A stretch of 64,000 nt of DNA from Protaetiibacter intestinalis (lineage in GTDB: Bacteria > Actinomycetota > Actinomycetes > Actinomycetales > Microbacteriaceae). Shown here in pieces: positions 6,961 through 42,232 of this stretch. Positions within the stretch are counted from its first letter, which is position 1. The number at the start of each line of letters is the position of its first letter. The notes beneath the pieces are model-generated. The model was not told where the DNA came from. It saw only the letters and a program-made list of their open reading frames with translations, and did no database searches. The position numbers and the translations under genes are program-made. Location: positions 1,240,001 through 1,304,000 of the forward strand of contig NZ_CP032630.1 in NCBI RefSeq assembly GCF_003627075.1, read 5' to 3'.

Positions 6961-7037
6961 CTGTGCCATGCGCACAGTGCGGACCCCGACCCCGGTGTAA
7001 GCGCACCTGGCCCGCGGGCGTGCCGCGCTCCTAGCGT
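6961..7037 (+). promoter_or_regulatory. Promoter and putative operators of the DUF917-hydantoinase operon
   Basis: A -10 box TAGCGT (7032-7037) lies 6 nt before the ATG at 7044, so the mRNA is probably leaderless. CCGGTGTAAGCGCACCTGG (6992-7010, containing GGTG-N6-CACC) ends 21 nt upstream of the -10, the same position as the element shared by other catabolic promoters here, though it is one of the weaker matches. A second dyad CTGTGC-N5-GCACAG lies at 6961-6977. No -35 hexamer is evident. Confidence 0.5.
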
Positions 7038-7043
7038 GGGAGC

Positions 7044-8138
7044 ATGCCGCAGACCGCCGCCCCACCCCGCCTCACCGAGGTGACCGCCGACGACATCGAG
7101 GCGCTCGCCGCCGGAACCGCCGTGTTCGGCACCGGCGGCGGCGGATCCGTCTACACCTCGCGCATCGTCGTCGAGCAGGCGCTGCGCGAGCGTGGACCCG
7201 TGCAGCTCGTGACGGTCGACGAGCTCACCGACGACGACACCGTCATCCTCATGTCGGGCATCGGCGCCCCCACCGTCGGCATCGAGATGCTCACCGCCGC
7301 CGAGCAGGTCGAGACGCTGCTGCGGGTCTCGGAGCGCGCGGCGGGCCGCCCCATCACGACCCTCATGGCGGCCGAGATCGGCGGCAGCAACGGCGTCGGC
7401 CCGATCGGCTGGGCGTCGCAGCTGGGCCTCAAGGTGCTCGACGCCGACGGCATGGGTCGCGCCTACCCGGATGCCGCGATGATCTCCATGAACGTCGCCG
7501 GCCTGCCGTGCGACTTCGCGGTGCTCTCGGATGTGATCGGCAACGTCTCCGTGCTCGAGACGGTCGACCTGCACTGGCTCGAGCGCCTCGCCCGCGTCCT
7601 CACGATCGCGAGCGGCTCCATCTGCCTCGGCACCCACTACCCCATGACGCGCGAGACCGCGCGCGGCGCCGTCATCGAGGGCACCGTGAGCGCCGCCATC
7701 CGCGTCGGCCGAGCGCTGCTCGCCGCCGCCGAGCCGGTGTCGGCGATCGCCGAGGCGATGGGGGGCGAGATCCTCCTGACGGGCAAGATCACCGACCTCG
7801 ACCGGCGCACCGAGACGGGTTTCACGCGTGGCAGCGTCACCATCACGGGTCTCGGCGACGACCGCGGCCGGGTGCAGAGCATCGAGCTGCAGAACGAGAA
7901 CCTCGTCGTGGTCGAAGACGGCCGGGTCGTGGTGAGCGTGCCCGACAACGTCACCCTCGTCGACGCCGAGACCGGCCACGCCATCACGACCGAGATGCTG
8001 CGCTTCGGGCAGCGGGTGGCCGTGCTCGCCTGGCCGGCCGACCCGCTGTGGCGCAGTCCGCGCGGCCTCGAGCTCGCCGGTCCGCGCGCCTTCGGCCTCG
8101 ACATCGACTACACCCCCTTCGAGCTGGGAGCACGATGA
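7044..8138 (+). CDS. DUF917 family protein (S-methyl-thiohydantoin desulfurase-like)
   Basis: The 364-residue protein is a full-length DUF917 member: it opens with DIEALAAGTAVFGTGGGGS, has IGGSNGVGPI and the DADGMGRAYPDAAMISM block, and ends with the usual FGLDIDYTPFE. Related proteins handle hydantoin or thiohydantoin rings and nearly always stand next to a HyuA/oxoprolinase-type gene, as here. The stop overlaps the next ATG (ATGA). The exact substrate cannot be read from sequence; ring-opening or ring-binding in a cyclic amide catabolic pathway is inferred. Confidence 0.88.
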   Translation: MPQTAAPPRLTEVTADDIEALAAGTAVFGTGGGGSVYTSRIVVEQALRERGPVQLVTVDELTDDDTVILMSGIGAPTVGIEMLTAAEQVETLLRVSERAAGRPITTLMAAEIGGSNGVGPIGWASQLGLKVLDADGMGRAYPDAAMISMNVAGLPCDFAVLSDVIGNVSVLETVDLHWLERLARVLTIASGSICLGTHYPMTRETARGAVIEGTVSAAIRVGRALLAAAEPVSAIAEAMGGEILLTGKITDLDRRTETGFTRGSVTITGLGDDRGRVQSIELQNENLVVVEDGRVVVSVPDNVTLVDAETGHAITTEMLRFGQRVAVLAWPADPLWRSPRGLELAGPRAFGLDIDYTPFELGAR

Positions 8139-9709
8139 GCACCGCACGCGACCTCTCCATCGGCGTCGACGTCGGCGGCACCAACACGGATGCCGCGGTC
8201 ATCGACCAGGCGGGCACCGTGCTCGCGCGCACCAAGCAGGCCACGACCGACGACGTGACGGGCGGCATCCGGGCGGGCATCTCGCACGTGCTCGCCGAGC
8301 TCGGCGAAGACCGTTCGCGCGTGGCACGCGTGATGCTCGGCACCACCCACGCCACCAACGCGATCGTGCAGCGGCGCGGCCTCGACCGGGTGGCCGCCAT
8401 CCGGCTCGGCGCGCCGGCGACGACCGCCTACCCGCCGCTGCTCGGCTGGCCGAGCGACCTCGCGCACCTCGTGCTGGCCGGCTCGGCCATGATCCGCGGC
8501 GGCAACATGGTCGACGGCACGCCCATCGCCCCGCTCGACCGCGACGGCATCCGGCGCTTCCTCGACGAGGTCGGGCAGGTCGACGCCGTCGCCGTGGCGG
8601 GGGTGTTCAGCCCCTCGACGCCCGAGCAGGAGCAGGAGGTGGGCGAGCTCATCCGGGCACACCTCGGGGCCGACGCTCGGGTGTTCCTCAGCCACGACAT
8701 CGGCCCCACGGGCCTGCTCGAGCGCGAGAACGCGACCGTGCTGAACGCGGCCCTGTACTCGGTGGCGCGCGCCGTGACCGAGGCGCTCGTCACGGTCGTC
8801 GCCGAGGAGGGGCTGGACGCGCAGACCTTCTTCGCGCAGAACGACGGCACCCTCATGTCGCTCGAGTACGCGGAGCAGTTCCCCGTGCTCACGATCGGCT
8901 CCGGCCCCGCCAACTCGATCCGCGGCGCCGCCTTCCTCTCCGGCGTCGAGAACGGCATCGTCATCGACGTGGGCGGCACCACCTCCGACCTCGGCGTCGT
9001 CGTCGACGGCTTCCCGCGCGAGTCGACCACCCCGCGCGACATCGGGGGCGTGCGCACCAACTTCCGGATGCCCGACATCCTGAGCCTCGGCATCGGCGGC
9101 GGCACGATCGTCGACCCGACCACCGGCGCGGTCGGGCCCGGCTCGGTCGGGCACCGCATCACGAGCGAGGGGCTGCTGTTCGGCGGGGCGACGCCGACGC
9201 TCACGGATGCCGCCTCGCTCGCGGGCGCGGCGGTCGCCGGGCGGCGGCTGCCCGAGCAGCCCGCGGCGATCGCCGACGCGCTGCGGGCCGGCCTCGCCGT
9301 CGCCCACGACCGGCTCGAGGCGGCCGTCGAGGCGCTCTCCTTCGGGCGCGGCGACCTGCCGCTCATCGTGGTCGGCGGGGGCGGGTTCCTCGTGCCGGAC
9401 GCGCTCGCCGGGGTCGCGGACGTCATCCGCCCCCACGACGGCGCAGTCGCCAACGCGGTCGGCGCGGCGATCGCCCTCGCGGGCGGCCGGGCCGAGCACC
9501 TGAGCGTGCAGGAGGACCGCGCGAGCGCGATCGAGACCGCCTCGGCGGCCGCCATCGCGAAGGCCGTGCAGGCGGGCGCCGACCCGCGCACGGTCGAGAT
9601 CGTCGAGGTGCTCGAGGCGCACGTCGCCTACGCGGACCGGCCCACCGTGCGGGTCTCGGTCAAGGCGGCGGGGCCGCTCGCGACCCTCGGGGAGCGGGTC
9701 GCGCGGTGA
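8135..9709 (+). CDS. Hydantoinase/oxoprolinase family protein (HyuA-like)
   Basis: Probably an ATP-dependent enzyme opening a cyclic amide (hydantoin, oxoproline or an analogue). The 524-residue protein has the N-terminal Hydant_A_N domain (SIGVDVGGTNTDAAVID, GTTHATNAIVQRRG) and the Hydantoinase_A core (GSGPANSIRGAAFL, IDVGGTTSDLGVVVDG, SLGIGGGTIVD). No HyuB partner is present; instead the gene is sandwiched by overlaps between DUF917 (ATGA) and an M20 amidohydrolase (GTGA), a combination suggesting ring opening followed by hydrolysis of the open-chain amide. Confidence 0.9.
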   Translation: MSTARDLSIGVDVGGTNTDAAVIDQAGTVLARTKQATTDDVTGGIRAGISHVLAELGEDRSRVARVMLGTTHATNAIVQRRGLDRVAAIRLGAPATTAYPPLLGWPSDLAHLVLAGSAMIRGGNMVDGTPIAPLDRDGIRRFLDEVGQVDAVAVAGVFSPSTPEQEQEVGELIRAHLGADARVFLSHDIGPTGLLERENATVLNAALYSVARAVTEALVTVVAEEGLDAQTFFAQNDGTLMSLEYAEQFPVLTIGSGPANSIRGAAFLSGVENGIVIDVGGTTSDLGVVVDGFPRESTTPRDIGGVRTNFRMPDILSLGIGGGTIVDPTTGAVGPGSVGHRITSEGLLFGGATPTLTDAASLAGAAVAGRRLPEQPAAIADALRAGLAVAHDRLEAAVEALSFGRGDLPLIVVGGGGFLVPDALAGVADVIRPHDGAVANAVGAAIALAGGRAEHLSVQEDRASAIETASAAAIAKAVQAGADPRTVEIVEVLEAHVAYADRPTVRVSVKAAGPLATLGERVAR

Positions 9710-15602: not shown

Positions 15603-16499
15603 GTGCTCGACGTCCGCCGCCTTGCCCTGCTGCGCGAGCTCGCGCTGCGCGGCACGATCGCCGCGGTCGCCGCGGCGCTGCACCTGACCCCCTCTGCGGT
15701 GTCGCAGCAGCTCGCGCAGCTGGAGCGCGAGGCCGGGGTGCCGCTGCTGCGCAAGTCGGGGCGGCGCCTGCAGCTCACCCCGCAGGCCGAACTGCTCGTC
15801 GGCCGCACCGAGGAGATCCTCGCGGCGCTCGAGCGCGCCGACACCGAGCTCGCGGCATCCCTCGAGCAGGCGACCGGCGTCATCCGCGTCGCGATCTTCC
15901 AGTCGGTCGCGCTCGCCTTGCTGCCGGCGGCGCTCGACGTGCTCGAACGCGAGCACCCGGCGCTCACGGCCGTCGTGACGCAGCGCGAACCCGAGACGGC
16001 GCTGCACGAGACCTTCGCGCGCGACTTCGACCTCGTCATCGCCGAGGAGTACCCGGGGCACGCGGCGCCGCAGCTCGCGGGCCTCGACCGGCGCCCGCTC
16101 ACGACCGACGCCATCCGGCTCGCCGTGCCGCCCGGCGGCGCCGGGCGCTTCTCGATCCGCGACATCCGCGACGCGCGGGATGCGCCCTGGGTCATGGAGC
16201 CGCACGGCGCGGCGTCGCGGCACTGGGCCGAGCAGGCCTGCCGGCGGGCCGGTTTCGAGCCGCAGGTGCGGTTCGAGACGGCCGACCTGCAGGCGCACGT
16301 GCGGCTCATCCAGACCGGCCACGCCGTGGCGCTGCTGCCCGACCTCATCTGGCAGGGCGCCGCCCCGACCGTCGACCTCGTCGACCTCGACGGCGGCCCG
16401 CGCCGCACGGTGTTCACCTCGACGCGCCTCGCCTCCGCCGGGCACCCCGCCGTCGTCGCGGTGCGCGACGCCCTCGAGCGCGCGGCGCACCAGGGCTAG
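15603..16499 (+). CDS. LysR-family transcriptional regulator
   Basis: 298 residues with an N-terminal winged helix (LLRELALRGTIAAVAAALHLTPSAVSQQLAQLEREAGVPLL) and a substrate-binding effector domain from about residue 90. The position, divergent from putA across 83 bp with a dyad in between, makes it the likely proline-responsive activator of putA-dapC; that is inference from layout. The GTG start follows AAGGA by 6 nt. The next operon begins 136 bp downstream and has its own promoter, so co-transcription is not needed. Confidence 0.9.
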   Translation: MLDVRRLALLRELALRGTIAAVAAALHLTPSAVSQQLAQLEREAGVPLLRKSGRRLQLTPQAELLVGRTEEILAALERADTELAASLEQATGVIRVAIFQSVALALLPAALDVLEREHPALTAVVTQREPETALHETFARDFDLVIAEEYPGHAAPQLAGLDRRPLTTDAIRLAVPPGGAGRFSIRDIRDARDAPWVMEPHGAASRHWAEQACRRAGFEPQVRFETADLQAHVRLIQTGHAVALLPDLIWQGAAPTVDLVDLDGGPRRTVFTSTRLASAGHPAVVAVRDALERAAHQG

Positions 16500-16543
16500 C
16501 CGCACCCGCCGGAGGGGCGACCGCACACCGTCCCGCGGGAAGC

Positions 16544-16589
16544 GTGGGCGTACCGCCCATGGAGGGCGCCTCGTCGGGCCTCGGAGACT
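16544..16589 (+). promoter_or_regulatory. Shared-element promoter of the amino-acid ABC operon
   Basis: GTGGGCGTACCGCCCATGG (16544-16562) ends 21 nt upstream of GAGACT (16584-16589). The element contains the dyad TGGGCG-N3-CGCCCA. No -35 hexamer is recognisable at 17 nt from the -10. The layout matches promoters at 19.4, 26.2, 35.1 and 37.0 kb. Confidence 0.55.
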
Positions 16590-16634
16590 GGCGGGAGGCG
16601 GTCGATGAAGCCCGCCCCAGACAGGAGACACAGC

Positions 16635-17519
16635 ATGCAACGACGCATCACCGCCCTGGCCGCCGTCTCGGCGGCAGCCCTCGCCCTCGTCCTCGTGGGC
16701 TGTTCGAGCGACGGAGGATCCGGCGGAGGCGAGGCCTCCGGCCCCAACGGCTTCGGCGACTGCGACCTCCCCGGCGAGGCGGGCAGCATCGAGCTCGACC
16801 CGATCGTCGACGGTCAGCTCTCCGTCGTGACGGTGCTGCCGAACCCCGGATGGTGGAACGGCACGACGCCCGAGAACCTCACCGACGGCTTCGAGATGTG
16901 CATGCTCGCCGACATCGCGCACCGCGCCGGTCTCGAGAAGATGACCATCAAGGTGCTCTCGTGGGATCAGTACATCTCCGGCTCGTTCACCGACTACGAC
17001 CTCGGCGCGGTCGTCACGAGCATCACCGAGGAGCGCAAGGCGATCTTCACCTTCTCCGACCCGTACTACACCTCGAACCGCTCCGTCACGGTGCAGAAGG
17101 ACTCGAAGTACGACGAGACCAACATCCGCGACGCGAAGATCGGCACGATCCAGAGCACCACGAACTCGAAGTGGCTGACGGATGTGCTGAAGCCGACCCA
17201 GGACCTCGCCCTGTTCAGCGACGGCCCCGAGATGTTCGCGGCCCTCGCCGCGGGACAGGTCGACGCGATCGTCACCGACACCGAGACCGCCCTCACCCAG
17301 TCGAAGCCGTACGCCGACCAGCTCGAGATCATCGGGCAGTGGAAGGCGGATGACGACTGGGGCATGGTCATGCCGCTCGACACCCCGAACGTCGACGCGG
17401 TCAACGAGGCGCTCGCGGCCATGAAGGCCGACGGCACGATGGACTTCCTTTCCGAGAAGTACCTCGCGCCGCTGTTCGGCATTGACCCGGCCAGCATCCG
17501 GTTCCTGGACGCGCCTTGA
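16635..17519 (+). CDS. Amino-acid ABC transporter substrate-binding lipoprotein (family 3)
   Basis: Extracytoplasmic receptor for a polar amino acid or opine-like compound. Residues 1-23 are a lipoprotein signal ending LVGC (Cys23), followed by a Gly/Ser linker and an SBP_bac_3 domain (FTFSDPYYTSNRSVTVQ, AALAAGQVDAIVTDTETALTQ). ATG 16635 is preferred over 16605 because CAGGAG precedes it and it places the signal peptide at the terminus. It is the first gene of a three-gene importer with 4-nt overlaps. Ligand unknown; the downstream flavin oxidase suggests an amino acid or N-methyl amino acid. Confidence 0.92.
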   Translation: MQRRITALAAVSAAALALVLVGCSSDGGSGGGEASGPNGFGDCDLPGEAGSIELDPIVDGQLSVVTVLPNPGWWNGTTPENLTDGFEMCMLADIAHRAGLEKMTIKVLSWDQYISGSFTDYDLGAVVTSITEERKAIFTFSDPYYTSNRSVTVQKDSKYDETNIRDAKIGTIQSTTNSKWLTDVLKPTQDLALFSDGPEMFAALAAGQVDAIVTDTETALTQSKPYADQLEIIGQWKADDDWGMVMPLDTPNVDAVNEALAAMKADGTMDFLSEKYLAPLFGIDPASIRFLDAP

Positions 17520-18628: not shown

Positions 18629-19356
<728 letters not shown>

Positions 19357-19391
19357 GCGGCGGGTGCGCGGCACACCGCGGCGCGGCATCC

Positions 19392-19436
19392 GTGGGCAGA
19401 CCGTACATGGGGGCGGATGCCGCGTTGCCGCAGACT
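19392..19436 (+). promoter_or_regulatory. Shared-element promoter of the flavin oxidase gene
   Basis: GTGGGCAGACCGTACATGG (19392-19410) ends 20 nt upstream of CAGACT (19431-19436). It differs from the element at 16544 in four of 19 positions, and the sequence around the -10 (AGACTGG) is shared with that promoter too. A 48-nt leader with a GGAG site precedes the ATG at 19485. Confidence 0.55.
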
Positions 19437-21463: not shown

Positions 21464-21465
21464 GC

Positions 21466-21912: not shown

Positions 21913-21958
21913 AGCCTCGCAGGAGGGTGTGCGCGGCGCACATGGTGGAGCGGACCAG
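21913..21958 (-). promoter_or_regulatory. Leaderless promoter of the cupin-hydrolase operon with a weak shared element
   Basis: On the minus strand GAGGCT (21918-21913) is 6 nt from the GTG. CTGGTCCGCTCCACCATGT (21958-21940) ends 21 nt upstream and has the TGG-N9-CCA pattern seen at other sites. An adjacent dyad TGTGCG-N3-CGCACA spans 21929-21943. This is one of the weaker matches to the shared element. Confidence 0.42.
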
Positions 21959-21982
21959 GTGCGCCCGGCGGCGGTGTGGCGT

Positions 21983-23365
21983 TCACCCTGAGGCTGCGGC
22001 GCGCACCGCCCGCCGCAGCAGCTCGAGGCGCACGGCCGCCTGCACGCGGAAGCGGCGCTCGGGGTCGGCGAGGGCGCCGTCGAGCAGGGCCTGGATGCGG
22101 TCGAGACGCTGCTGCACCGTGTTGGGGTGGATGCGCAGGGTGGCCGCCGTCGCCCCGCGGCTCTCGCCCGCGTCGAAGTAGGCGCCGAGGGTGTCGACGA
22201 GGCGGGCGCCCCGCCGCTCGTCCCAGGCGAGCACGGGCCCGAGGAGCTCGGCGATGAAGCCGTCGAGCGCGGCGGGGTCGGCCGGGGCGAGCACCTGGTA
22301 GGGCGCGAAGGCGTCCGACGACACGGTCGCCCCCGTCACGCCGAGCGCGGGCAGCAGCTCGAGGTCGCGCACCGCGCGCTCGAGGCCCTCGCGCAGTCCG
22401 GCGCGCGCGAGCTCCCGCCGCAACGCGACCGCCGTGAGGCCGGGGTCGCGCAGCGCGTCGGCCGCGATCCGGCGCACCCGCTCCGTCTCGGCGACCACCT
22501 CGGGTGCGGTCCAGGCGATCGCGATCCGGCCGTTCCACGCCGCCACGAATCCCGCATCGCCCACCGCGCGCTCCACGACGCGCACCGCGTCGACCAGGCC
22601 GCGGGCGGCCACCGCGAGCACCGCGCACCCCGTGAACCCGGCGGGCGCGGCGACGCCGTCGTCGGCATCCGCGGGGGCGCGCCCGTCGATCGCGTCGAGC
22701 AGCCACCCGGCCCGGCGTTCCGCGACCACGGCGAGGGCGGATGCCGAGAGGTGCCGTTCCAGCTCGCGGTAGGCCTCCTCGGCGCGGATCGTCGCGGCCG
22801 AGGCGGCCGCGAGCAACCGCGCACTGTGCAGCACGGCCGCCGCGTGGTCGGCGAAGGCCGACAGCAGCAGCACCTGCTCGGGGGCGAACTCGTGCGGTGA
22901 GCGGTTGCAGGCGAACAGGGCGCCGAGCACCTCGTCGCCGACCGCGAGCGGCACCCCGAGGAACGACACGAGCCCCTCCGCCCGCACGACCGCGTCGATG
23001 TGCGCGTCGTGCGGTGCCTCGCTCATCGCCTCGTAGCGCGGCACGCGCACCGGCTCGCGGGTGCGCACGACGAGGCTCGCGAGCCCGACCCCGGCCGGCA
23101 CCCGCAGCCGGCGGAACTCGGGGGTCACGGTGCCTGCGGTGTAGCGCACCCGCAGCTCGCCGTCGGCGCCCTGCGCCTCGGAGAGGTAGGTGACGTCGGT
23201 GCCCATGAGCGCGTGAGCCCGCTCGACGAGGCGGCTCAGCACCTCGTCGACGTCCCGCAGCCGTACGAGCTCGCGCGCCGTCGAGAACAGCGCCTCGAGC
23301 TCCGCCGCCCGCCGCCGCAGCCGCCCGTTCTCAGCGAGGGCTGCCGCGAGCGCGTCGTCGGTCAT
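21983..23365 (-). CDS. GAF-PucR transcriptional regulator (copy 1)
   Basis: 460-residue regulator: a short coiled N-terminus, a GAF sensor domain (about residues 25-190; ALFSTARELVRLRDVDEVLSRLVERAH, DVTYLSE), a middle domain, and a C-terminal PucR-type HTH (GESRGATAATLRIHPNTVQQRLDRIQALL). Such proteins activate catabolic operons after binding a small ligand. It lies 19 nt after the enoyl-CoA hydratase gene on the same strand and also has TAGGCT 6 nt before its ATG, so it may be both co-transcribed and independently leaderless. The N-terminal 200 residues closely resemble those of the regulator at 35200. Confidence 0.88.
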   Translation of the reverse strand: MTDDALAAALAENGRLRRRAAELEALFSTARELVRLRDVDEVLSRLVERAHALMGTDVTYLSEAQGADGELRVRYTAGTVTPEFRRLRVPAGVGLASLVVRTREPVRVPRYEAMSEAPHDAHIDAVVRAEGLVSFLGVPLAVGDEVLGALFACNRSPHEFAPEQVLLLSAFADHAAAVLHSARLLAAASAATIRAEEAYRELERHLSASALAVVAERRAGWLLDAIDGRAPADADDGVAAPAGFTGCAVLAVAARGLVDAVRVVERAVGDAGFVAAWNGRIAIAWTAPEVVAETERVRRIAADALRDPGLTAVALRRELARAGLREGLERAVRDLELLPALGVTGATVSSDAFAPYQVLAPADPAALDGFIAELLGPVLAWDERRGARLVDTLGAYFDAGESRGATAATLRIHPNTVQQRLDRIQALLDGALADPERRFRVQAAVRLELLRRAVRAAASG

Positions 23366-25463: not shown

Positions 25464-25508
25464 GATATGGCGCGGGCGCTATAGATGCCCGGCTGGATGT
25501 GTTCCCAC
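25464..25508 (-). promoter_or_regulatory. Operator/promoter region of the CoA-transferase operon
   Basis: On the minus strand GTGGGAACACATCCAGCC (25508-25491) ends 21 nt upstream of CATATC (25469-25464), one base shorter than the other shared elements. A second, different dyad (TATnGCGC-N2-GCGCnATA type) covers 25465-25482 and overlaps that -10. An alternative leaderless -10, CACGAT, is 6 nt before the ATG. Which start point is used cannot be decided by eye. Confidence 0.42.
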
Positions 25509-26141: not shown

Positions 26142-26207
26142 GCCCCCAGCATCCGGGGTCGCGGCGCCCCGCGGGAGCGGTGGTTCGCACACCCGGGCCC
26201 CGACCCT

Positions 26208-26253
26208 GTGGGTGGACTCCACATACGCACCCGCTTGACGGCGTGATTAGCCT
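26208..26253 (+). promoter_or_regulatory. Shared-element promoter of the peptide ABC operon
   Basis: GTGGGTGGACTCCACATAC (26208-26226) ends 21 nt upstream of TAGCCT (26248-26253). With the preceding T it forms TGTGG-N7-CCACA (26207-26223). This is the clearest dyad of the set and shares 13 of 19 positions with the element at 35093-35111 and 15 with that at 37030. Confidence 0.6.
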
Positions 26254-33568: not shown

Positions 33569-35059
33569 TCAGAGGGCGCGGTGGGTGAAGCGGCCGGCGA
33601 GCCAGGTCGCGGCGACCGGCATCGTGCGCAGGGCATCGGGGTCGAGGGTCGCGGGGTCGAGGTCGACCGCCACGAGGTCGGCGGGGTCGCCCACGGCGAC
33701 GGTCGCGCGGCCGCGGGTGGAGGCGGCGAGCGCCACCTCGAACGGGATGCGCTGCTCCGGATGCCAGGGCGCGCGGTCGCCGCGGCGGCGCGCGACGGCG
33801 GCCGACATCGAGATCCACGGGTCGAGCGGCGCGACGGGCGCGTCCGAGCCGAGGCGCAGTTCGGCGCCCGCGGCGTGCAGCGAGCCGAAGGCGAAGGCGC
33901 GGTCGGTGCGGCCCGCCCAGTGGTGGTCGGCGACGTCGCGGTCGTCCATGGCGTGCTCGGGCTGCACGCTCGCGACCACGCCGAGCGCGGCGAAGCGCGG
34001 GAAGTCGCGTTCGGCCACGAGCTGGGCGTGCTCGATGCGGCCCGCCATGCCGAGCTCGGCGAAGGCGTCGAGCGCCTCGCTGTTCGCCCGGTCGCCGATC
34101 GCGTGCACGGCCGCCGAGATGCCGTGGTCACGCGCCCGTCGCAGCAGCTCGCGCAGCTCGGAGGGGGCGGTCGTGATGACGCCGCAGGCGTGCTCGGCGT
34201 GCGGGTCGAGGTCGGGATACGGCTCCCAGCACCAGGCCGTGCGGGTGTTGAGCGAGCCGTCGACGACGATCTTGAGCGGCCCCATGCGCACGAGGCCCGC
34301 GGGGTCGAGTGCGTCGCCCGTGCGGTGCCCCGCGGCGATCGCCGCCTCGAGCCGGTCGGGCCAGACGGCGGCCTCGACGCGCAGCTGCTCCACGCCCGCC
34401 GCGACGCGGGCCGGCCACTCGGCGATGTTGTCGGCGTGCTCGAGCTCGACGACCCCCACGACCCCGCGCCGGGCGGCATCCTCGGCGGCCTCGCGGTAGG
34501 CCGAGGCGGGCAGCGTGCTCGAACTCTCGAGCCGGGCGGAGGCGGCGATCCACGGGCCCTCGCGCACGAGGCCCGAGGCATCCGGGGCGAGCCCCAGCAT
34601 CCGGGCGCCCGCGGTGTTGAGCCACGCGCAGTGCAGGTCGCCGCTCACGAGCGCGACGGGCACCCGCGGCGCGACGAGGTCGATCGCGGCGAGGCTCGGC
34701 GCCTCGGTCCACAACCCGTCGCGGAAGCCGTATCCGACGAGCAGCTCGTCGGGCGCGGCCTCCCCGCGTCGCGCGAGCTCCGCGCCCAGCCGCTCGAGCA
34801 CCTCGCGGGGGCTCGCGGTGTCGGCGAGGTCGAAGCGGCGGCGACGGATGACGTGCTGGGTGAGGTGCACGTGCTCGTCCCACAGCCCCGGCAGCAGCAG
34901 GCGTCCCCCGAGCTCGACCGGCTCGGCGCCCGCCGTCTCGGCGCGGTCGCGCGGGTCGACGGCGGCGATCCGCCCGTCGCGCAGCAGCACCGCGTGCTCG
35001 CCCTCGGCCCCGGGAAGTCGCGCCCCGCGCAGCAGCAGCGGCGGCGCGGCGGTGGTCAC
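33569..35059 (-). CDS. Amidohydrolase family protein (YtcJ-like), copy 2
   Basis: 496 residues; LPGLWDEHVHLTQHV (metal HxH), GPLKIVVDGSLNTRTAWCWE, HAIGDRANSEALDAFAEL, RIEHAQLVAERDF and LGSDAPVAPLDPW mark the same family as the protein at 31592. The GTG start is 6 nt after a TAGGGT box, so the mRNA is leaderless. It is divergent from the GAF-PucR gene at 35200, with the clearest shared operator in between, which makes it a likely direct target of that regulator. Confidence 0.87.
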   Translation of the reverse strand: MTTAAPPLLLRGARLPGAEGEHAVLLRDGRIAAVDPRDRAETAGAEPVELGGRLLLPGLWDEHVHLTQHVIRRRRFDLADTASPREVLERLGAELARRGEAAPDELLVGYGFRDGLWTEAPSLAAIDLVAPRVPVALVSGDLHCAWLNTAGARMLGLAPDASGLVREGPWIAASARLESSSTLPASAYREAAEDAARRGVVGVVELEHADNIAEWPARVAAGVEQLRVEAAVWPDRLEAAIAAGHRTGDALDPAGLVRMGPLKIVVDGSLNTRTAWCWEPYPDLDPHAEHACGVITTAPSELRELLRRARDHGISAAVHAIGDRANSEALDAFAELGMAGRIEHAQLVAERDFPRFAALGVVASVQPEHAMDDRDVADHHWAGRTDRAFAFGSLHAAGAELRLGSDAPVAPLDPWISMSAAVARRRGDRAPWHPEQRIPFEVALAASTRGRATVAVGDPADLVAVDLDPATLDPDALRTMPVAATWLAGRFTHRAL

Positions 35060-35065: not shown

Positions 35066-35111
35066 ACCCTACGCAGCCGCCCCGACGCAGGAGTATGTGA
35101 CATACCGCCAC
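35066..35111 (-). promoter_or_regulatory. Shared-element promoter of amidohydrolase 2 (divergent from GAF-PucR copy 2)
   Basis: Minus strand: GTGGCGGTATGTCACATAC (35111-35093) ends 21 nt upstream of TAGGGT (35071-35066), which is 6 nt from the GTG. The same DNA contains the dyad GTATG-N3-CATAC and, with 35120-35126, GAGTATG/CATACTC. On the plus strand CATGTGAAATCCGCCCTGC (35126-35144) lies 20 nt before GAGACT (35165-35170), a weaker candidate for the regulator's own promoter. Confidence 0.6.
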
Positions 35112-35199
35112 CTCCGCGGCATACTCATGTGAAATCCGCCCTGCCCGGACCGCGGCCCGCCCGCGAGACTGGGAGGGCCGGCGGACGACGGAGGACCCG

Positions 35200-37005
35200 A
35201 TGAGCGAGGACGCACCCGCGCGCGCCGCCGACGAGCTCGAACGCCTGCGCCGCGAGAACACCCGCCTGCGCCGCCGCGAGCACGAGTTGAGCGCCCTGTT
35301 CGCGAGCGCCCGCGAGCTCGCCGAGCTGCGCGACTCGGATGCCGTGCTCGCCCGCCTCGTGCAGCGCGCCCACGAGATGATGGGCGCCGACGTCACCTAC
35401 CTCTCCGAGTTCGACCCCGCATCCCGTGAACTCCGGGTGCGCGAGACGAGCGGCTCGGTGAGTGCCGCCTTCCAGCAGCTGCGCGTGCCGGCCGGTGCGG
35501 GCCTCGCGAGCGCGATCGTCGAGACGCGTGCCGCCCAGTGGGTGTCGCGCTACGCCGACTACGCGAGCGACCGCCACGAGCGCGGCATCGACGACGCCGT
35601 CTCGGCCGAGGGGCTCGTGTCGATCCTCGGTGTGCCGATGCTGACCGACGACGAGGTGCTCGGCGTGCTGTTCGTCGCCGACCGCGACGAGCACGTGTTC
35701 ACCCCCGAGGAGATCGCGCTGCTCTCGGCGCTCGCCGACCACGCCTCGATCGTGCTGCAGACGGCGCGCACCCTGCGCGAGCTGCGCAGCTCGGAGGACG
35801 AGACCCGCCACGCCCTCGAGAGCCTCACCGAGCACCTCACCGAGCGCGACCGGGCCAACACGGTGCACCAGGAGCTCGTGCACGCCGTGCTCGCGGGCGG
35901 CGGCTTCTCGCCGGTGGCCGAGACGCTCTCCTCCGCCCTCGACCGCACGGTCGCGATCGTCGACGCGGGCGGCCGACTCATCGCCGCCGCGGGCCTGCCG
36001 CTGCCGGAGGGCATGGTCGAGCTCGCGGATGCGACGCGCGCCGCGATCGAGGAGAGCCGTGCATCCGGGCACTGCGTGCTCGTCGAGGGGGTGCCGGGCG
36101 TGCACGCGGTCGCGGCGCTCACCGCCGGCCCCCAGTTCTTCGGCACGGTGCTGCTCGGCGACGGCGACTTCGCGCTCGGCGCCGTCGACCGTCGCACGGT
36201 GGAGCGCGCCGCGCAGGTGGGTGCCCTGCTCGCCCTGCAGCAGGAGGCCGTTGCGGGGGCCGAGCACCGCACCCAGAGCGAGCTCGTCGCCGAACTGCTG
36301 GATGCCGTGCCCGAGCGCCGCGGCGACGTCGAGCGTCGCGTGCGCCGCCTCGGCATCGACCCCGAACGGCTCGACGCGCTCGCCCTGTTCGTGGTGCCGG
36401 GCGAGCATCGGGCGGGCGCCGCACGGACCCTCGCCCCCTCCTTCGACCAGCGGGCGCTCGTGGGCGAGTACCGCGGTTTCGTGGTGGTCTGCTACGACGG
36501 CGACACCGTCTCGCCCGACCTCGAGCAGTTGCGGGCGCGGGTCGCGCGGGCCGTGCAGCGCCCCGTGCTCGCGGTCGTGCCGCCGCGGGCCGCCGGGGCG
36601 CTCCCGGCGGCGGCCGGTCAGGCGCTGCGCACAGCCCGGCTGCTCGCCGCCCTCGGCGCCGACGACCTCACCGCCCGCACCGAGGACTACCTGCCGTACT
36701 CCGCCATCCTCGACGCCGACGAGCGTGCGCTCGCGGCGTTCCTCGACGGCACGATCGGGGCCGTGCGGCGCTACGACGAGAGCCGCGGCACCGACCTGCT
36801 CGGCACCCTGCGGGCGTTCGTGCGGCACAACGCGAGCCCCACCCGCACGGCGCGCGCGCTCAACTTCCACACCAACACGATCCTGCAGCGCCTCGAGCGC
36901 CTGGATGCCGTGCTCGGCGAGGGCTGGCGCGACGACGAGCGGCTGTTCCGCATCGGTCTGGCCACCCGGCTCGACGAGTTGAGCGAGCAGCTCGGGGGCG
37001 GTTGA
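35200..37005 (+). CDS. GAF-PucR transcriptional regulator (copy 2)
   Basis: 601-residue regulator: coiled N-terminus (ELERLRRENTRLRRREHEL), GAF domain (about residues 25-195; DVTYLSEFDPASRELRVRET), a longer middle region than copy 1, and a C-terminal PucR HTH (FVRHNASPTRTARALNFHTNTILQRLERLDAVL). The first 200 residues parallel copy 1 (ELAELRDSDAVLARLVQRAHEMMGADVTYLSE versus ELVRLRDVDEVLSRLVERAHALMGTDVTYLSE). GAG-GAC Shine-Dalgarno, ATG start. It stands between amidohydrolase 2 and the mevalonate-type operon and probably activates one or both. Confidence 0.89.
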   Translation: MSEDAPARAADELERLRRENTRLRRREHELSALFASARELAELRDSDAVLARLVQRAHEMMGADVTYLSEFDPASRELRVRETSGSVSAAFQQLRVPAGAGLASAIVETRAAQWVSRYADYASDRHERGIDDAVSAEGLVSILGVPMLTDDEVLGVLFVADRDEHVFTPEEIALLSALADHASIVLQTARTLRELRSSEDETRHALESLTEHLTERDRANTVHQELVHAVLAGGGFSPVAETLSSALDRTVAIVDAGGRLIAAAGLPLPEGMVELADATRAAIEESRASGHCVLVEGVPGVHAVAALTAGPQFFGTVLLGDGDFALGAVDRRTVERAAQVGALLALQQEAVAGAEHRTQSELVAELLDAVPERRGDVERRVRRLGIDPERLDALALFVVPGEHRAGAARTLAPSFDQRALVGEYRGFVVVCYDGDTVSPDLEQLRARVARAVQRPVLAVVPPRAAGALPAAAGQALRTARLLAALGADDLTARTEDYLPYSAILDADERALAAFLDGTIGAVRRYDESRGTDLLGTLRAFVRHNASPTRTARALNFHTNTILQRLERLDAVLGEGWRDDERLFRIGLATRLDELSEQLGGG

Positions 37006-37029
37006 TCCGCACACGAGACACCCTCAGGC

Positions 37030-37074
37030 GTGGGTGGACGTTCCATACGCCGTCGTGCGGCGGATTCCTAGGGT
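37030..37074 (+). promoter_or_regulatory. Shared-element promoter of the HMG-CoA operon
   Basis: GTGGGTGGACGTTCCATAC (37030-37048) ends 20 nt upstream of TAGGGT (37069-37074). It is the closest relative of the element at 26208 (identical in the first ten positions and the last five). A 64-nt leader with GGAGGAG precedes the GTG at 37139. Confidence 0.6.
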
Positions 37075-37138: not shown

Positions 37139-38410
37139 GTGTCGATCAACAGCCGACTGTCGGGACTGCGGGATCTCGACGCCACCGCACGGCGTGCCGC
37201 GGTGACCGAGGCCGCCGGCCTCGACGCGGGCGCCCTCGACGCCCTCGACCCCGCGCGCGGCCTCACGCTGGAGGCCGCCGACCACCTCATCGAGAACGTC
37301 GTGGGGATCATCGGCATCCCGGTCGGCGTCGCCACCAACTTCACGATCGACGGCGTCGACCGCCTCGTGCCGATGGCCACCGAGGAGCCGAGCGTCGTCG
37401 CTGCGGCCTCGAACGCCGCCCGGATGACGCGCGGCCACGGCGGCTTCCGCACCTCCACGACGGGCCCCGTGATGATCGCCCAGATCCAGGTGGTCGACGC
37501 GGCGGACCCCGAGGCGGCGCGCCTGCGACTGCTCGAGGCGCGCGAGGAGCTGCTCGCACTCGCCGACGCGCAGGACCCGATGCTCACGAGCCTCGGCGGC
37601 GGCGCCCGCGACCTCGTCGTGCGCACCCTGCCCACCCGCACGGGCGTGCACCTCGTCGCCCACCTGCACGTCGACGTGCGGGATGCCATGGGCGCGAACG
37701 CGGTCAACACGATGGCCGAGGCGCTCGCCCCGCGCGTCGCCGAGCTCGCCGACGGTCGCTCGCTGCTGCGCATCCTCTCCAACAAGGCCGACCAGCGGCT
37801 CATCCGGGCGCGGGCCGTGTTCGACGCCGAGCTGCTCGGCGGCGCGCAGGTGGTGCGCGACATCGTGCACGCGAGCGCCTTCGCCGAGGCCGACCCGTAC
37901 CGCGCCGCGACCCACAACAAGGGCATCATGAACGGCATCACGGCCGTCGTGCTCGCGACCGGCAACGACACCCGCGCCGTCGAGTCGGGTGCCCACTCGC
38001 ACGCCGCGCGCGGGGGCGGCTACACCGCGCTGTCGCACTTCGAGCTCGGCGAGGGCGGGCACCTCGCGGGCACGCTCGAGCTGCCGCTCGCGGTCGGGCT
38101 CGTCGGCGGCGCGACGCGCGCGCACCCGGTGGCGCAGGCCGCCATCCGCCTGCTCGGCATCCGCACGGCGGCCGAGCTGGCCGCGGTCATCGCCTCGGTG
38201 GGTCTCGCCCAGAACCTCGCGGCGCTGCGGGCGCTCGCGGCCGAGGGCATCCAGCGCGGCCACATGACCCTGCACGCCCGCACGATCGCCGCCTCCGCGG
38301 GCGCCGCCGGCGAGGAGATCACGCGCGTCGCGGAGCGCATCGTGGCCGACAAGCTCATCCGGCTCGAACACGCCCAGGACGTGCTCGCCGAGCTGCGTTC
38401 CGTGCGATGA
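37139..38410 (+). CDS. mvaA: Hydroxymethylglutaryl-CoA reductase, class II (degradative type)
   Basis: 423 residues. Class II HMG-CoA reductase interconverts mevalonate + CoA and HMG-CoA. The catalytic set is present: ENVVGIIGIPVGVATNFTIDG (Glu), DAMGANAVNTM, SNKADQRLIRA, HNKGIMNGITAV (Lys), ATGNDTRAVE (Asp) and GHMTLHARTIA (His). Start: GTG after GGAGGAG; an earlier ATG at 37034 lies in the promoter. No mevalonate kinase or HMG-CoA synthase is near, while HMG-CoA lyase overlaps the stop (ATGA), so the direction is most likely catabolic (mevalonate to HMG-CoA to acetyl-CoA + acetoacetate), as in Pseudomonas mevalonii. Confidence 0.92.
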   Translation: MSINSRLSGLRDLDATARRAAVTEAAGLDAGALDALDPARGLTLEAADHLIENVVGIIGIPVGVATNFTIDGVDRLVPMATEEPSVVAAASNAARMTRGHGGFRTSTTGPVMIAQIQVVDAADPEAARLRLLEAREELLALADAQDPMLTSLGGGARDLVVRTLPTRTGVHLVAHLHVDVRDAMGANAVNTMAEALAPRVAELADGRSLLRILSNKADQRLIRARAVFDAELLGGAQVVRDIVHASAFAEADPYRAATHNKGIMNGITAVVLATGNDTRAVESGAHSHAARGGGYTALSHFELGEGGHLAGTLELPLAVGLVGGATRAHPVAQAAIRLLGIRTAAELAAVIASVGLAQNLAALRALAAEGIQRGHMTLHARTIAASAGAAGEEITRVAERIVADKLIRLEHAQDVLAELRSVR

Positions 38411-39375
38411 CCGATCCCGACGCCCGGCCGCTCTGGCATCCGCGCCCCCAGCCGGTGGCCGACCCGGGCCTGCCGACGCGCGTGCGCGTCTTCGAGGTCG
38501 GCCCGCGGGACGGCCTGCAGGCCGAGCCCGAGATCCTCTCGCCCGAGGTCAAGATCGAGTTCTGCCGTCGGCTGCTCGCGACGGGCCTCGGGGCCGTCGA
38601 GCTGACGAGCTTCGTGCCGGCACGCTGGATTCCGCAGCTCGCGGATGCCGAGGAGGTCGTCGCCGGCGTCGCGGTGCCCGAGGGGGTGCGCGGCGTCGCG
38701 CTCGTGCCCAACCGCCGCGGCCTCGACCGCGCGCTCGCGGCCGGCCTCGACGAGGTCTCGGTGGTCGTGAGCGCCACCGAGAGCTTCGCCCACGCGAACC
38801 TCAACACGACCGTCGAGGGCGCCCTCGCGACCGCCGCCGAGGTGATCGCGGCCGCCGGCGAGGTGGGGGTGCCCGTCCGCGGCTACGTCTCGATGTCGTT
38901 CGGCGACCCGTGGGAGGGCCCGGTGCCCGTCGCCCGCGTCGCCGAGCTCGCCGGCCGCCTGCACGCCGCGGGCGCCTCCACGATCGCCCTCGGCGACACG
39001 ATCGGCACCGGCACCCCCGGCCACGTCGTCGACCTCGTCGAACGCACCGTCGACGCCGGCGTGCCCCGTGACGTGCTCGCCCTGCACCTGCACGACACCT
39101 ACGGCCAGGCGCTCGGCAACGTGCAGGCCGCCCTGCGGGTCGGCATCACCGAGTTCGACAGCTCGGCCGGCGGCCTCGGGCGCTGCCCCTTCGCGAAGGG
39201 CGCCACGGGTAACCTCGCAACCGAGGAGCTCGTCTGGCTGCTGCACGGCCTCGGCATCGAGACCGGCGTCGACCTCGAGGGCCTCGTGCGCACCTCGCAG
39301 TGGATGTCGCGCGTGCTCGGTCGGCCGCTCGCCTCCCGGGTCGCCACGGCGCTCACCGCAGCAGGGGTCTCCTGA
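38407..39375 (+). CDS. mvaB: Hydroxymethylglutaryl-CoA lyase
   Basis: 322-residue HMGL-like TIM-barrel enzyme cleaving HMG-CoA to acetyl-CoA and acetoacetate. VGPRDGLQAEPEILS (metal and catalytic Arg/Asp), ELTSFVPARWIPQLADAEEV, HLHDTYGQALGNVQAAL (metal histidines) and the flexible catalytic-cysteine loop GGLGRCPFAKGATGNLATEEL are all present. A citramalyl-CoA or related lyase activity is possible for the family, but the HMG-CoA reductase immediately upstream favours HMG-CoA. Confidence 0.9.
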   Translation: MTDPDARPLWHPRPQPVADPGLPTRVRVFEVGPRDGLQAEPEILSPEVKIEFCRRLLATGLGAVELTSFVPARWIPQLADAEEVVAGVAVPEGVRGVALVPNRRGLDRALAAGLDEVSVVVSATESFAHANLNTTVEGALATAAEVIAAAGEVGVPVRGYVSMSFGDPWEGPVPVARVAELAGRLHAAGASTIALGDTIGTGTPGHVVDLVERTVDAGVPRDVLALHLHDTYGQALGNVQAALRVGITEFDSSAGGLGRCPFAKGATGNLATEELVWLLHGLGIETGVDLEGLVRTSQWMSRVLGRPLASRVATALTAAGVS

Positions 39376-39397
39376 ACCGCCCGAACGGAGCCGCACC

Positions 39398-40639
39398 ATG
39401 AACCTCCCGACACCGCATCCGCTGCTCGCCGCCTCCGCGGGCTCGCTCTCGGGGGTCGTCGTGCTCGACCTCTCGCGCGTGCTCGCCGGGCCGTACGCGG
39501 CGTCGCTGCTCGCCGACCTCGGCGCGACCGTCATCAAGGTCGAGAACCCCGCCGACCCGGATGTGTCGCGCGGCTTCCCGCCCTACCTGCGCGACGGCGA
39601 GGAGGAGTTCAGCGGCTACTACGGCCAGTACAACCGCGGCAAGCTCGGCCTCGCCCTCGACCTCGCGAACGAGCAGGGCAAGGCCGTGCTGAAGGACCTC
39701 GTGGCGGGCGCCGACCTGCTCGTCGAGAACTTCCGACCCGGCACCATGGCGAAGCTCGGCCTCTCCTACGAGACGCTCGCGGCGATCAACCCGCGGCTCG
39801 TGTACCTCGCGATCTCCGGCTACGGGCAGACCGGTTCGCGCAGCCGCCGACCGGCGTTCGACAACACGGCGCAGGCGGCGGGCGGCATCTGGTCGATGAA
39901 CGGCTACCCGGGCGAGGCGCCCGTGCGCGTCGGCGTGACGATCGGCGACCTGTCGGCATCCCTGTTCGGCGTGATCGGGGCGCTCGCGGCGCTGCGGCAC
40001 GCGGAGGCGACGGGCGAGGGCCAGCTCGTCGACGTCGCGCAGGTCGACAGCATCATCGCGATGACGGAGACCGCGGTCGTCGACTACACGGTCGAGGGCA
40101 AGGTGGCGTCGCCGCAGGGCAACGCGCACGCCTGGGTGCGCCCCTACGAGCTGTTCCCGTGCGCCGACGGCCAGGTGTTCTTCGGCGCCTACACCGACAA
40201 GCTGTGGCGGGCCGCGTGCGAACTGTTCGGCACGCCCGAGGCGGCCGACGACCCCGAACTCGACACCATGCGCAAGCGCTTCGACCCCGAGGTGTACGAG
40301 CGGCGCGTGAAGCCGCTCGTCGTCGCCTGGTTCGCCGACCGCACGCGCGCCGAGCTCGAGCGGCTCGCGGGCGACGTGATCCCGCTCACCGCCGTGCGCG
40401 ACATCGGCGAGGTCGTCGAGGAGCCCGGCACCGCCGAGCGCGAGATGGTCGTCGAGGCCGACTACGGCCCGCTCGGGGTGCTGCGGATGTTCGGCCAGCC
40501 GATCAAGCTGAGCGCCACCCCCGCCACCCCGGCCCGCACGGCGAACCGCATGGGCGAGCACGCCGACATCGTGCTGGCGGGCCTCGCCGGCTACGACGCC
40601 GAGCGCATCGCCGTGCTCCGGGCGGACGGCGTGATCTGA
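39398..40639 (+). CDS. CaiB/BaiF family (class III) CoA-transferase, copy 2
   Basis: 413 residues; DLSRVLAGPYAASLLADLGA, YNRGKLGLALDLAN, NFRPGTMAKLGLSYETL and the catalytic aspartate in RPAFDNTAQAAGG. It would load CoA onto an acid for the neighbouring enzymes, e.g. free 3-hydroxy-3-methylglutarate or an unsaturated C6 relative, using a CoA-ester donor (inference). Paralogue of the transferase at 24167. Start ATG 39398 after CGGAG, 22 nt behind the lyase; the earlier frame overlaps the lyase and has no homology. Confidence 0.91.
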   Translation: MNLPTPHPLLAASAGSLSGVVVLDLSRVLAGPYAASLLADLGATVIKVENPADPDVSRGFPPYLRDGEEEFSGYYGQYNRGKLGLALDLANEQGKAVLKDLVAGADLLVENFRPGTMAKLGLSYETLAAINPRLVYLAISGYGQTGSRSRRPAFDNTAQAAGGIWSMNGYPGEAPVRVGVTIGDLSASLFGVIGALAALRHAEATGEGQLVDVAQVDSIIAMTETAVVDYTVEGKVASPQGNAHAWVRPYELFPCADGQVFFGAYTDKLWRAACELFGTPEAADDPELDTMRKRFDPEVYERRVKPLVVAWFADRTRAELERLAGDVIPLTAVRDIGEVVEEPGTAEREMVVEADYGPLGVLRMFGQPIKLSATPATPARTANRMGEHADIVLAGLAGYDAERIAVLRADGVI

Positions 40640-41463
40640 TGCCGACCCGCCGCGAGACCCTCTCCGCCGTGCCGGCGGCGCAGTACCGCGGCACCTTCGC
40701 GCCGAGCGCCGTCATCCCGGTGTCGGGCGGCGCGCTGCCGCCCGGCTGGGAGGGGCTGTACTTCCCCTTCGACGCCGACCTCGCCGCGCTGCGCCCCGAC
40801 GGCACGCCCGCCCGCGACGGCATCCTGCCCGAGATCGAGCTGCCGCGGCGCATGTACGCGGGCGAGGACACGGTCTTCCACGCCCCGCTGCGGTTCGGGG
40901 AGCGCGTCGAGCAGTCCGCCCGCGCGGGGGCGGTCGTGGAGAAGACGGGACGCTCGGGGCGGCTCGTGTTCGCCGACATCGTGCGCGAGTACCGCGTCGA
41001 CGGGCGGCTCGCGATCGAGAGCACCTGGCACGACGTGTTCCTGGAGGCGGCGGAACCGGGTGCGGCCGCCGCGCCCGTGGCGGCCCCGGAGGAGCCCGCC
41101 GACTGGGAGCGGAGGGTCACGGTCGACGTCCGTCAGCTTTTCCGCTTCTCGGCCATCACCTTCAACACGCACCGCATCCACTACGACCGCGACTGGGCGC
41201 AGCGCGTCGAGGGGCTCGCCGAGCTGCTGGTGCACGGCCCGCTGCTGCGCATCCTGCTGCTCGACGCGGTCGCGGCGCACGAGCCGGACCTCGCGCCGCG
41301 CACCGTCGCCTACCGCTCCCACGCGCCCGTGCTCGTGGACGCCGAGGTGCGGCTGCGCGGCCGCCGGACGGGCGCCGGGGTCGAGGTGAGCGCGCTCGGC
41401 CCGGCCGGCGAGCTCGTGGCGCGGGCGAGCGTGCAGGGCGAGGGCGTCAGCCGCCGGCGCTGA
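40639..41463 (+). CDS. HTD2/mesaconyl-CoA hydratase-like hot-dog dehydratase
   Basis: 274 residues with two hot-dog halves. The N-terminal half resembles FAS1-like dehydratase domains (PPGWEGLYFPFDADLAALRPDG), the C-terminal half has the MaoC-like active-site region FSAITFNTHRIHYDRDWAQRVEG. Relatives hydrate mesaconyl-C4-CoA or dehydrate 3-hydroxyacyl thioesters. In this operon it could interconvert HMG-CoA and 3-methylglutaconyl-CoA, or feed a different acid into the pathway; neither can be decided from sequence. Start overlaps the CoA-transferase stop; the last 17 bp overlap a convergent hydrolase gene. Confidence 0.82.
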   Translation: MPTRRETLSAVPAAQYRGTFAPSAVIPVSGGALPPGWEGLYFPFDADLAALRPDGTPARDGILPEIELPRRMYAGEDTVFHAPLRFGERVEQSARAGAVVEKTGRSGRLVFADIVREYRVDGRLAIESTWHDVFLEAAEPGAAAAPVAAPEEPADWERRVTVDVRQLFRFSAITFNTHRIHYDRDWAQRVEGLAELLVHGPLLRILLLDAVAAHEPDLAPRTVAYRSHAPVLVDAEVRLRGRRTGAGVEVSALGPAGELVARASVQGEGVSRRR

Positions 41464-42181
41464 GGAAGCCGAGCGCCTCGGCGGCCACGGCATCCGGTCG
41501 CTCGCTCACGAGCATGTGCGTGGTGCCCGGCACCACGACGAGCCGTGCTCCCGGGATGGATGAGGCGATCAGCTCGCTGTGGTCGCGGCGGATCGCGTCG
41601 TGCTCGCCCGCCATGACGAGCGTCGGCACCCGGATGCCGGCGAGCGACGCGACGGGGATGTCGGGCTCGGCCGTCCACATCGCGAGCAGCTTCTCGAGCA
41701 CGACCGCGCCGTGCTCCGCGCCGTCGGGCGAGAGTTCGGCGTACTCGCGGTCGAGCCGCTCGTGGGCGGCCTGCGGCACGGTCTCGTGCGGGTAGTCCTC
41801 GGGCACGAAGGCGTCGGTGTGGATGTTGGCGCTGATCGGCACGATGCGGCGCACCCGCCCCGGGTGCTCGAGGGCGAGCAGCAGCGCGAGGATGCCGCCG
41901 TCGCTGAAACCGACGACGTGCACGGAGTCGAGACCCACGGCATCCAGGTAGGCCACGGTCTCCTCGAGCATGCGGCCGTAGCCGTAGGGGCCCTCGCGGT
42001 CGGGCGTCCGGCCGTGGCCGGCGCGCTCGGGGGCGTGCACCTCGTAGCGCTCGGCGAGCAGCCCGCCGAGCGGGCGCATGTTCTCGAGCGAGCAGTACCC
42101 GCCGTGCAGCAGCAGGAGCGGCTCACCGGTGCCGTGCACCTCGTGGTAGATCGTCTCGGGCCCAACGCGCAGGTACGGCAT
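41447..42181 (-). CDS. Alpha/beta hydrolase (lactonase/esterase-like)
   Basis: 244 residues; LLLLHGGYCSLENMRPLGG (oxyanion), VVGFSDGGILALLLAL (nucleophile Ser in GFSDGG), MAGEHDAIRRDHSELI and VPGTTHMLVSERPDAVA (acid and His). Resembles 3-oxoadipate enol-lactonase-like hydrolases. ATG start 6 nt after TAGGGT, so leaderless, with a candidate shared operator upstream. Its 3' end overlaps the dehydratase gene by 17 bp, leaving no room for a terminator between the two convergent genes. Confidence 0.87.
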   Translation of the reverse strand: MPYLRVGPETIYHEVHGTGEPLLLLHGGYCSLENMRPLGGLLAERYEVHAPERAGHGRTPDREGPYGYGRMLEETVAYLDAVGLDSVHVVGFSDGGILALLLALEHPGRVRRIVPISANIHTDAFVPEDYPHETVPQAAHERLDREYAELSPDGAEHGAVVLEKLLAMWTAEPDIPVASLAGIRVPTLVMAGEHDAIRRDHSELIASSIPGARLVVVPGTTHMLVSERPDAVAAEALGFLSAGG

Positions 42182-42187
42182 GGCGCC

Positions 42188-42232
42188 ACCCTACGGGGCG
42201 CCATGCCGTACCGATATGTGCCGGAGACACAG
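42188..42232 (-). promoter_or_regulatory. Leaderless promoter of alpha/beta hydrolase 2 with a shared-type element
   Basis: Minus strand: CTGTGTCTCCGGCACATAT (42232-42214), containing TGTG-N7-CACA, ends 20 nt upstream of TAGGGT (42193-42188), which is 6 nt from the ATG. It matches the element at 26208 in 11 of 19 positions. A small hairpin CAGGG-N6-CCCTG at 42245-42260 may end the upstream padR transcript. Confidence 0.5.

Follow-up and report, generated by a model that had tools for sequence, protein, structure and literature searches.

A three-part promoter element recurs in a catabolic island of Protaetiibacter intestinalis, within a 64,000-nucleotide (nt) stretch that was analysed as a whole (the window; positions 1,240,001–1,304,000 of a one-contig genome of 3,097,107 bases). 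We consider it probable that this element is the operator of PucR-A, a regulator encoded among its targets, which would bind a palindrome as a dimer, contact a half-site upstream and switch on the island by class II activation. A first-pass annotation of this DNA had proposed a local regulon in which an activator-like element replaces the −35 box; our analysis supports it, with the exact element confined to the window and its spacing kept in relatives. The element, its spacing, its restriction to the island, its conservation and its co-occurrence with PucR-A are all supported by the analysis, while binding by PucR-A, activation as its mode of action, the oligomeric state, the transcription starts and the effector are inferred. 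Cross-genus comparison thus defines a regulator, a site and a regulon of at least six units, which makes the island substrate testable by induction and the motif usable to find further members.

All seven strings put forward by the first-pass annotation were found at their coordinates and on their strands, with the named hexamers 20–21 nt downstream. Six of the seven also carry a block that it had not reported, CACA[C/T], located 5' of GTGG by exactly 20 nt at 16544, 19392, 26208, 37030 and 35111 (minus) and by 21 nt at 42232 (minus). The binomial probability of CACA at −20 or −21 in six of seven elements is 6.7e-16, the seven being the first-pass selection, in which CACA had no part. At the −35 place of the six good promoters, the best match to TTGACA lying 16–18 nt from the −10 box has 2 or 3 of 6 letters. 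The promoters and the genes behind them are as follows:

Promoter 1, 16524..16589, plus strand: CACAC at 16524–16528, core GTGGGCGTACCGCCCATGG at 16544–16562, −10 GAGACT at 16584–16589; SBP3-type ATP-binding cassette (ABC) importer, 16605–19356 (its ATPase identified by reading the translation, with no profile scan).
Promoter 2, 19372..19436, plus strand: CACAC at 19372–19376, core at 19392–19410, −10 CAGACT at 19431–19436; DAO-family flavin oxidase, ~19485–20621.
Promoter 3 (weaker), 21913..21978, minus strand: CACAC at 21978–21974, core CTGGTCCGCTCCACCATGT at 21958–21940, −10 GAGGCT at 21918–21913; cupin and alpha/beta hydrolase.
Promoter 4, 26188..26253, plus strand: CACAC at 26188–26192, core GTGGGTGGACTCCACATAC at 26208–26226, −10 TAGCCT at 26248–26253; SBP5-type ABC importer and amidohydrolase, 26316–33163.
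Promoter 5, 35066..35131, minus strand: CACAT at 35131–35127, core GTGGCGGTATGTCACATAC at 35111–35093, −10 TAGGGT at 35071–35066; amidohydrolase, 33569–35059, the DNA being common to the divergent regulator gene.
Promoter 6, 37010..37074, plus strand: CACAC at 37010–37014, core GTGGGTGGACGTTCCATAC at 37030–37048, −10 TAGGGT at 37069–37074; operon from ~37139 to 41463.
Promoter 7, 42188..42253, minus strand: CACAC at 42253–42249 (offset +1 base), core CTGTGTCTCCGGCACATAT at 42232–42214, −10 TAGGGT at 42193–42188; alpha/beta hydrolase, 41447–42181.
Possible promoter 8 (weak), 6972..7037, plus strand: GCACAG, GGTG, GCACCTGG, −10 TAGCGT at 7032–7037; S-Me-THD-type gene, 7044–8138.
Regulator PucR-A, 35200..37005, plus strand: 601 amino acids, GAF at ~45–187 and HTH_30 at 533–590; proposed owner of the element.
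Regulator PucR-B, 21983..23365, minus strand: second GAF/HTH_30 protein with a different recognition helix; dispensable for the element.

The exact tripartite pattern CACA-N16-GTGG-N10-CATRS occurs five times in the 3,097,107 bases, each time inside the window, and its reversed control does not occur. With up to one mismatch there are 11 matches against 5 in the control, namely the five exact ones and six from the background, one of which also falls within the window, inside a gene. The core followed by a −10 box at 20 or 21 nt was found, with up to one mismatch, at six places genome-wide, five of them inside the window and the sixth where a gene ends; with up to two mismatches, which takes in 42232 (minus), totals of 17 and 18 compare with 16 and 21 in the control. 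The single off-island place, at genome position 2925602 (one mismatch), was rejected as spurious, its TAG reading as a stop codon at an apparent gene end. Among 149 genomes including its own, 22 have at least one exact copy: five in G000, three in G008, two in G001 and one or two in each of the other 19. G000, G008 and G001 together hold 10 copies against 1 in the reversed control, the other 146 genomes 21 against 29, and six same-genus genomes without PucR-A have 0 or 1 match each.

Scores were obtained with a model whose cores all came from outside the window, 6 being orthologues within the genus and 22 coming from other genera, and compared with 200 column-permuted models (95% point 18.2, maximum 21.4). 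The six good members reached 31.0 (37030), 29.1 (35111, minus), 29.1 (26208), 23.8 (19392), 21.9 (16544) and 21.5 (42232, minus), the last having a held-out score of 18.7; adding the CACA block raised all six to 29–39. Promoter 3, one of the weaker first-pass candidates, has the full architecture and clearer counterparts in relatives (17.8 in the aligned DNA of G008; 13.7 at the matching place in G001), and its own score with the CACA block, 11.7, is below the 95% point and not significant. At possible promoter 8, GCACAG, GGTG and a −10 directly before ATG are kept in G008 and G001, with a score of 7.8 that is likewise not significant; the remaining weak candidate, 35126, coincides with 35111 (minus). 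One of the seven strings, 25491..25508 (minus), was rejected as a member, as it has no CACA block, scores −2.7 and is not conserved.

In the same-genus genomes G008 and G001 most of the neighbouring gene order is preserved, with other genes inserted, and the element keeps its spacing there as well as in other genera, as the first-pass annotation had asked of relatives. For 26208, 37030 and 35111 (minus) in the three species, the blocks and −10 retain 76 of 90 columns and the gaps 51 of 106 (Fisher p 1e-7); the promoter 4 core is identical in 18 of 19 columns, and an importer promoter in genome G037 has the same architecture. The promoter 1 element is kept in G008 and has no match in G001, whose stretch has no such importer. 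No counterpart of the hydrolase behind promoter 7 was found in the G008 and G001 stretches compared.

Relatives of PucR-A were found at 23 loci, 21 of them outside the genus (Microbacterium, Plantibacter, Frigoribacterium, Salinibacterium, Phytoactinopolyspora, Gordonia and Pseudonocardia), and at E ≤ 1e-120 in 14 of 398 family genomes. A 12-site same-genus model (5 sites from the window, 4 from G008, 3 from G001; −10 at 19–22 nt) gave the importer promoter of G037 the top score within 20 kb, 33.7, the runner-up at 4.8 being an inverted second copy. In that promoter (L058, reverse complement) the cores at 5727–5745 (minus) and 5802–5820 (plus) face opposite ways, 56 nt apart, and have TGGGTGAACGGCACAT in common. 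The same model placed the regulator promoter (19.8) and the DAO promoter (14.5) of Plantibacter genome G058 first in their stretches; two further G058 stretches held no site above 7.9, and no comparable site was found in 20 kb around a 36% PucR beside HMG-CoA reductase in G083 (best 7.9). Across 22 held-out loci (all 21 outside the genus plus G037, with near-duplicates kept, including four Plantibacter and four Pseudonocardia), there were 17 in which no more than 5 of 300 column-permuted models attained the best core-plus-(−10) score. By our reading, 16 of these 17 best matches lie upstream of an island gene; the exception, in L104 (17492, plus), is oriented against the adjacent genes and may be due to chance.

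De novo expectation-maximisation on 38 promoters of other genera recovered the same palindrome, RTGKG-N7-CMCAT, returned as caTGtGtgattgaCACATacc, with a log-likelihood of 282 against 81 to 92 for six mononucleotide-shuffled sets (30 starts each, against 120 for the real data). The promoters were chosen by hand from 17 loci, L103, L105, L108, L112 and L113 having been dropped by eye as near-duplicates, and divergent pairs share DNA, so that one palindrome may count twice. All seven DAO promoters examined in Microbacterium and Plantibacter carry the core, followed at 20–21 nt by CA[C/G]ACT and preceded by CACA at a distance of exactly 20, and match window position 19392 in all blocks. In Plantibacter the element is located upstream of the PucR-A gene, and in several Microbacterium upstream of the hydrolase gene that precedes it; in Gordonia it directly follows the regulator gene, and Pseudonocardia has it on either side. 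The neighbourhood of PucR-A in the Microbacteriaceae loci and in L117 repeatedly includes subsets of the following: reductase operon, amidohydrolases, DAO, importers and PutA. Gordonia loci have reductase and lyase, and Pseudonocardia loci a CoA-transferase relative, with no reductase match within the DNA examined. In L114 (Microbacterium sp. NIBRBAC000506063) many island genes align piecewise, suggesting frameshift errors in the record.

The PucR-A gene sits between two of the best elements, its upstream DNA being the 35111 element. Its product ends in an HTH_30 domain (PF13556, E 4e-14, residues 533–590), the recognition helix of which follows SPT[R/K]TAR.L..H.NT[I/V]LQRL at 21 of the 23 loci, the pattern being unmatched in L102 and L103. 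A look for a GGDEF-like middle domain, which about half of PucR-type regulators have according to PMC7652997, gave a weak match of residues 417–576 to 3onq (E 1.6e-4). As is typical of a PucR-type operator, the inverted repeat lies just upstream of the −35 position and has catabolic genes as neighbours.

Several results weigh against the assignment of the element to PucR-A. Even at E 0.01 the protein matches solely GAF families and HTH_30, and not PF07905, the domain of canonical PucR; it may therefore operate unlike the studied PucR proteins, and we file it as a GAF-HTH_30 regulator that would work like PucR-type activators, not as a canonical PucR. The loci of other genera were fetched via PucR-A, so the co-occurrence is partly built in; a less constrained control is offered by the six same-genus genomes that lack PucR-A, with 0 or 1 exact match each. 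Five of the 22 held-out loci (L101, L107, L109, L115 and L119) do not rise above the permuted null, and the recognition helix is retained in these too. With the core alone far fewer loci stand out, so that much of the signal must come from the spacing to the −10; in the de novo alignment TA[G/C/T]NNT follows the 19-base core at 20–21 nt in only 15 of 38 rows, 4 having it at other distances and 19 lacking it, 7 of the latter being the DAO rows with CA[C/G]ACT. In the aligned DNA of G008 and G001 the promoter 2 element is not kept. The scan itself also has a counterexample: with the window-free model an unrelated AT-rich palindrome at 42950 reaches 26.4, above three of the six members, and drops to 24.2 when the CACA block is added.

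The first-pass annotation had named both GAF-PucR proteins of the window as candidates, and the two fared differently. It is improbable that PucR-B, alone or jointly with PucR-A, owns the element, even though it is encoded within the island, its GAF part is 52% identical to that of PucR-A and a relative adjoins the DAO gene in Plantibacter: G001 and G037 carry the element without PucR-B, the sole matches at E ≤ 1e-10 being two halves of PucR-A, and no second PucR lies within 10 kb at 8 of 9 Microbacterium loci (there is one in L118). Because both genomes keep the element, PucR-A, which goes with it, is most probably the sole owner.

The PucR-A dimer would occupy RTGKG-N7-CMCAT, an imperfect palindrome whose centre lies ~43 nt ahead of the transcription start, with a further subunit contacting the CACA[C/T] block two helical turns upstream (~−70), and would touch RNA polymerase in place of a −35 box. 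In this way it would switch on six or more of the transcription units in the island and probably influence its own gene, the trigger presumably being a pathway metabolite filling its GAF domain. Predicted minus-strand genes with (longest-frame) starts at 35059, 42181 and 21906 begin 7 nt after the last −10 base, a distance resembling that of leaderless messages; if so, the core would span ~−52 to −34 and CACA ~−72 to −68. That the element instead serves a repressor, or that PucR-A represses some units, seems just as improbable as a role for PucR-B: Bacillus subtilis PucR activates as well as represses (as mentioned in PMC7652997), but a position just upstream of −34, no recognisable −35 and a constant 20–21 nt to the −10 speak against repression.

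This kind of regulator and operator is already known from GabR of Corynebacterium glutamicum, which likewise has a C-terminal PucR helix-turn-helix, activates a divergent catabolic operon and binds within −87 to −23, where strong binding requires both of two 21-bp inverted repeats (PMC7652997). Class II activation by PucR-A with a second upstream contact is suggested by analogy with that GabR footprint, together with the poor −35 and the position of the element. GabR differs in being reported to act on one operon and in its placement in PF07905 (same source); here one palindrome plus a half-site serves at least six units over 26 kb. Two PucR-type regulators of B. subtilis, PutR and AdeR, also activate amino-acid catabolism and have inverted-repeat sites, of 17 and 24 bp (PMC7652997); their genes differ, and the likeness drawn is one of description. 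MabR of Mycobacterium tuberculosis is also an actinobacterial PucR-type regulator, but has a globin-like N-terminal domain and regulates mycolic acid synthesis (PMC11617747). Few PucR-type regulators have been studied so far (PMC7652997), and GabR was the only actinobacterial PucR-type operator study recognised in our literature search, which covered subscription journals thinly.

Ownership by the LysR-type protein encoded at 15603–16499, less probable still, could draw on a gene end ~45 nt ahead of the promoter 1 core and on a relative near PutA at 5 of the 23 PucR-A loci, but searches of the remaining 18 loci (limited to 10-kb flanks), of the G037 stretch and of two G058 stretches gave no LysR match at E ≤ 1e-5, and several of these places carry the element. 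A sigma-factor or general promoter feature, to which the fixed distance to the −10 would point, is next to impossible: the element does not recur at unrelated genes genome-wide, with zero exact tripartite matches off the island in 3.1 Mb and other genomes at control level.

The promoter 6 operon encodes 3-hydroxy-3-methylglutaryl-coenzyme A (HMG-CoA) reductase of the degradative type (TIGR00532, 406 bits, cutoff 260), HMG-CoA lyase, CoA-transferase III and a FAS1/MaoC-like dehydratase, the last a weak match (25 bits, cutoff 22); the DAO oxidase matches N-methyl-L-tryptophan oxidase (NF008425, 313 bits, cutoff 257). Mevalonate catabolism is known from mvaAB of Pseudomonas mevalonii, an inducible operon of degradative HMG-CoA reductase and HMG-CoA lyase. 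The island shares this enzyme pair, but has another class of regulator and adds CoA-transferase III, dehydratase, amidohydrolases and importers. A PaiB-like flavin mononucleotide (FMN)-binding protein (PF04299) is encoded at 25521–26222; several other loci also have it, next to either amidohydrolase genes or the reductase operon.

In G008 an ornithine cyclodeaminase (NF005762, 512.6 bits, cutoff 350) is encoded directly behind the element; G001 has a relative at 90%, and in both genomes the gene lies between the counterpart of 21958 (minus) and the cupin gene. Relatives at 72–74% occur in Microbacterium oxydans and M. fluvii, where they are flanked by the reductase genes and the amidohydrolases. 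No match to the G008 enzyme was found in the P. intestinalis genome, in a search run without a positive control. The genes are:

L037:12118–13146, minus strand: ornithine cyclodeaminase.
L041:7956–8978: ornithine cyclodeaminase.
L101:3150–4154: ornithine cyclodeaminase.
L106:2886–3887: ornithine cyclodeaminase.

Since this enzyme joins the set in G008, G001, L101 and L106, a substrate composed of ornithine plus an acid derived from mevalonate is tentatively favoured. Fungal hydroxamate siderophores of the fusarinine/coprogen type are built of N5-anhydromevalonyl-N5-hydroxyornithine. SidI, SidH and SidF are named in this context in PMC3709128. We tentatively suggest, as a possibility with the odds against it, that PucR-A, through its three-part operator, controls a so far undescribed route by which bacteria consume such siderophores, a reading whose odds are raised by the cyclodeaminase right behind the element in G008 and its relatives elsewhere. 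The importers would take up the siderophore, and hydrolases and amidohydrolases would release acid and amino acid; CoA-transferase III and the FAS1/MaoC-like enzyme would convert anhydromevalonate to mevalonate via a CoA ester, and HMG-CoA reductase and lyase would complete mevalonate breakdown. Reduction of the hydroxylamine may fall to the PaiB-like FMN protein; ornithine cyclodeaminase would yield proline for consumption by PutA, and the DAO enzyme, resembling N-methyl-amino-acid oxidases, could remove the N-methyl groups of methylated coprogens. If true, this would be a new trophic link between actinobacteria and fungi. Our literature search on mevalonate catabolism, anhydromevalonate or siderophore degradation and Homoserinibacter recognised no description of the island, which does not establish its absence from print.

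Two neighbouring features were also recorded. In Plantibacter (G058), a siderophore-type importer with Peripla_BP_2, FecCD and ABC components lies near the island (L044:2295–6361). In the window, the AT-rich palindrome at 42950–42975 (TAACGATATATCGTTA) is located upstream of a PadR-like gene (Pfam PadR in the open reading frame 42284–44209, minus strand); lacking the CACA block, it was rejected as a member of the regulon and looks like a separate operator.

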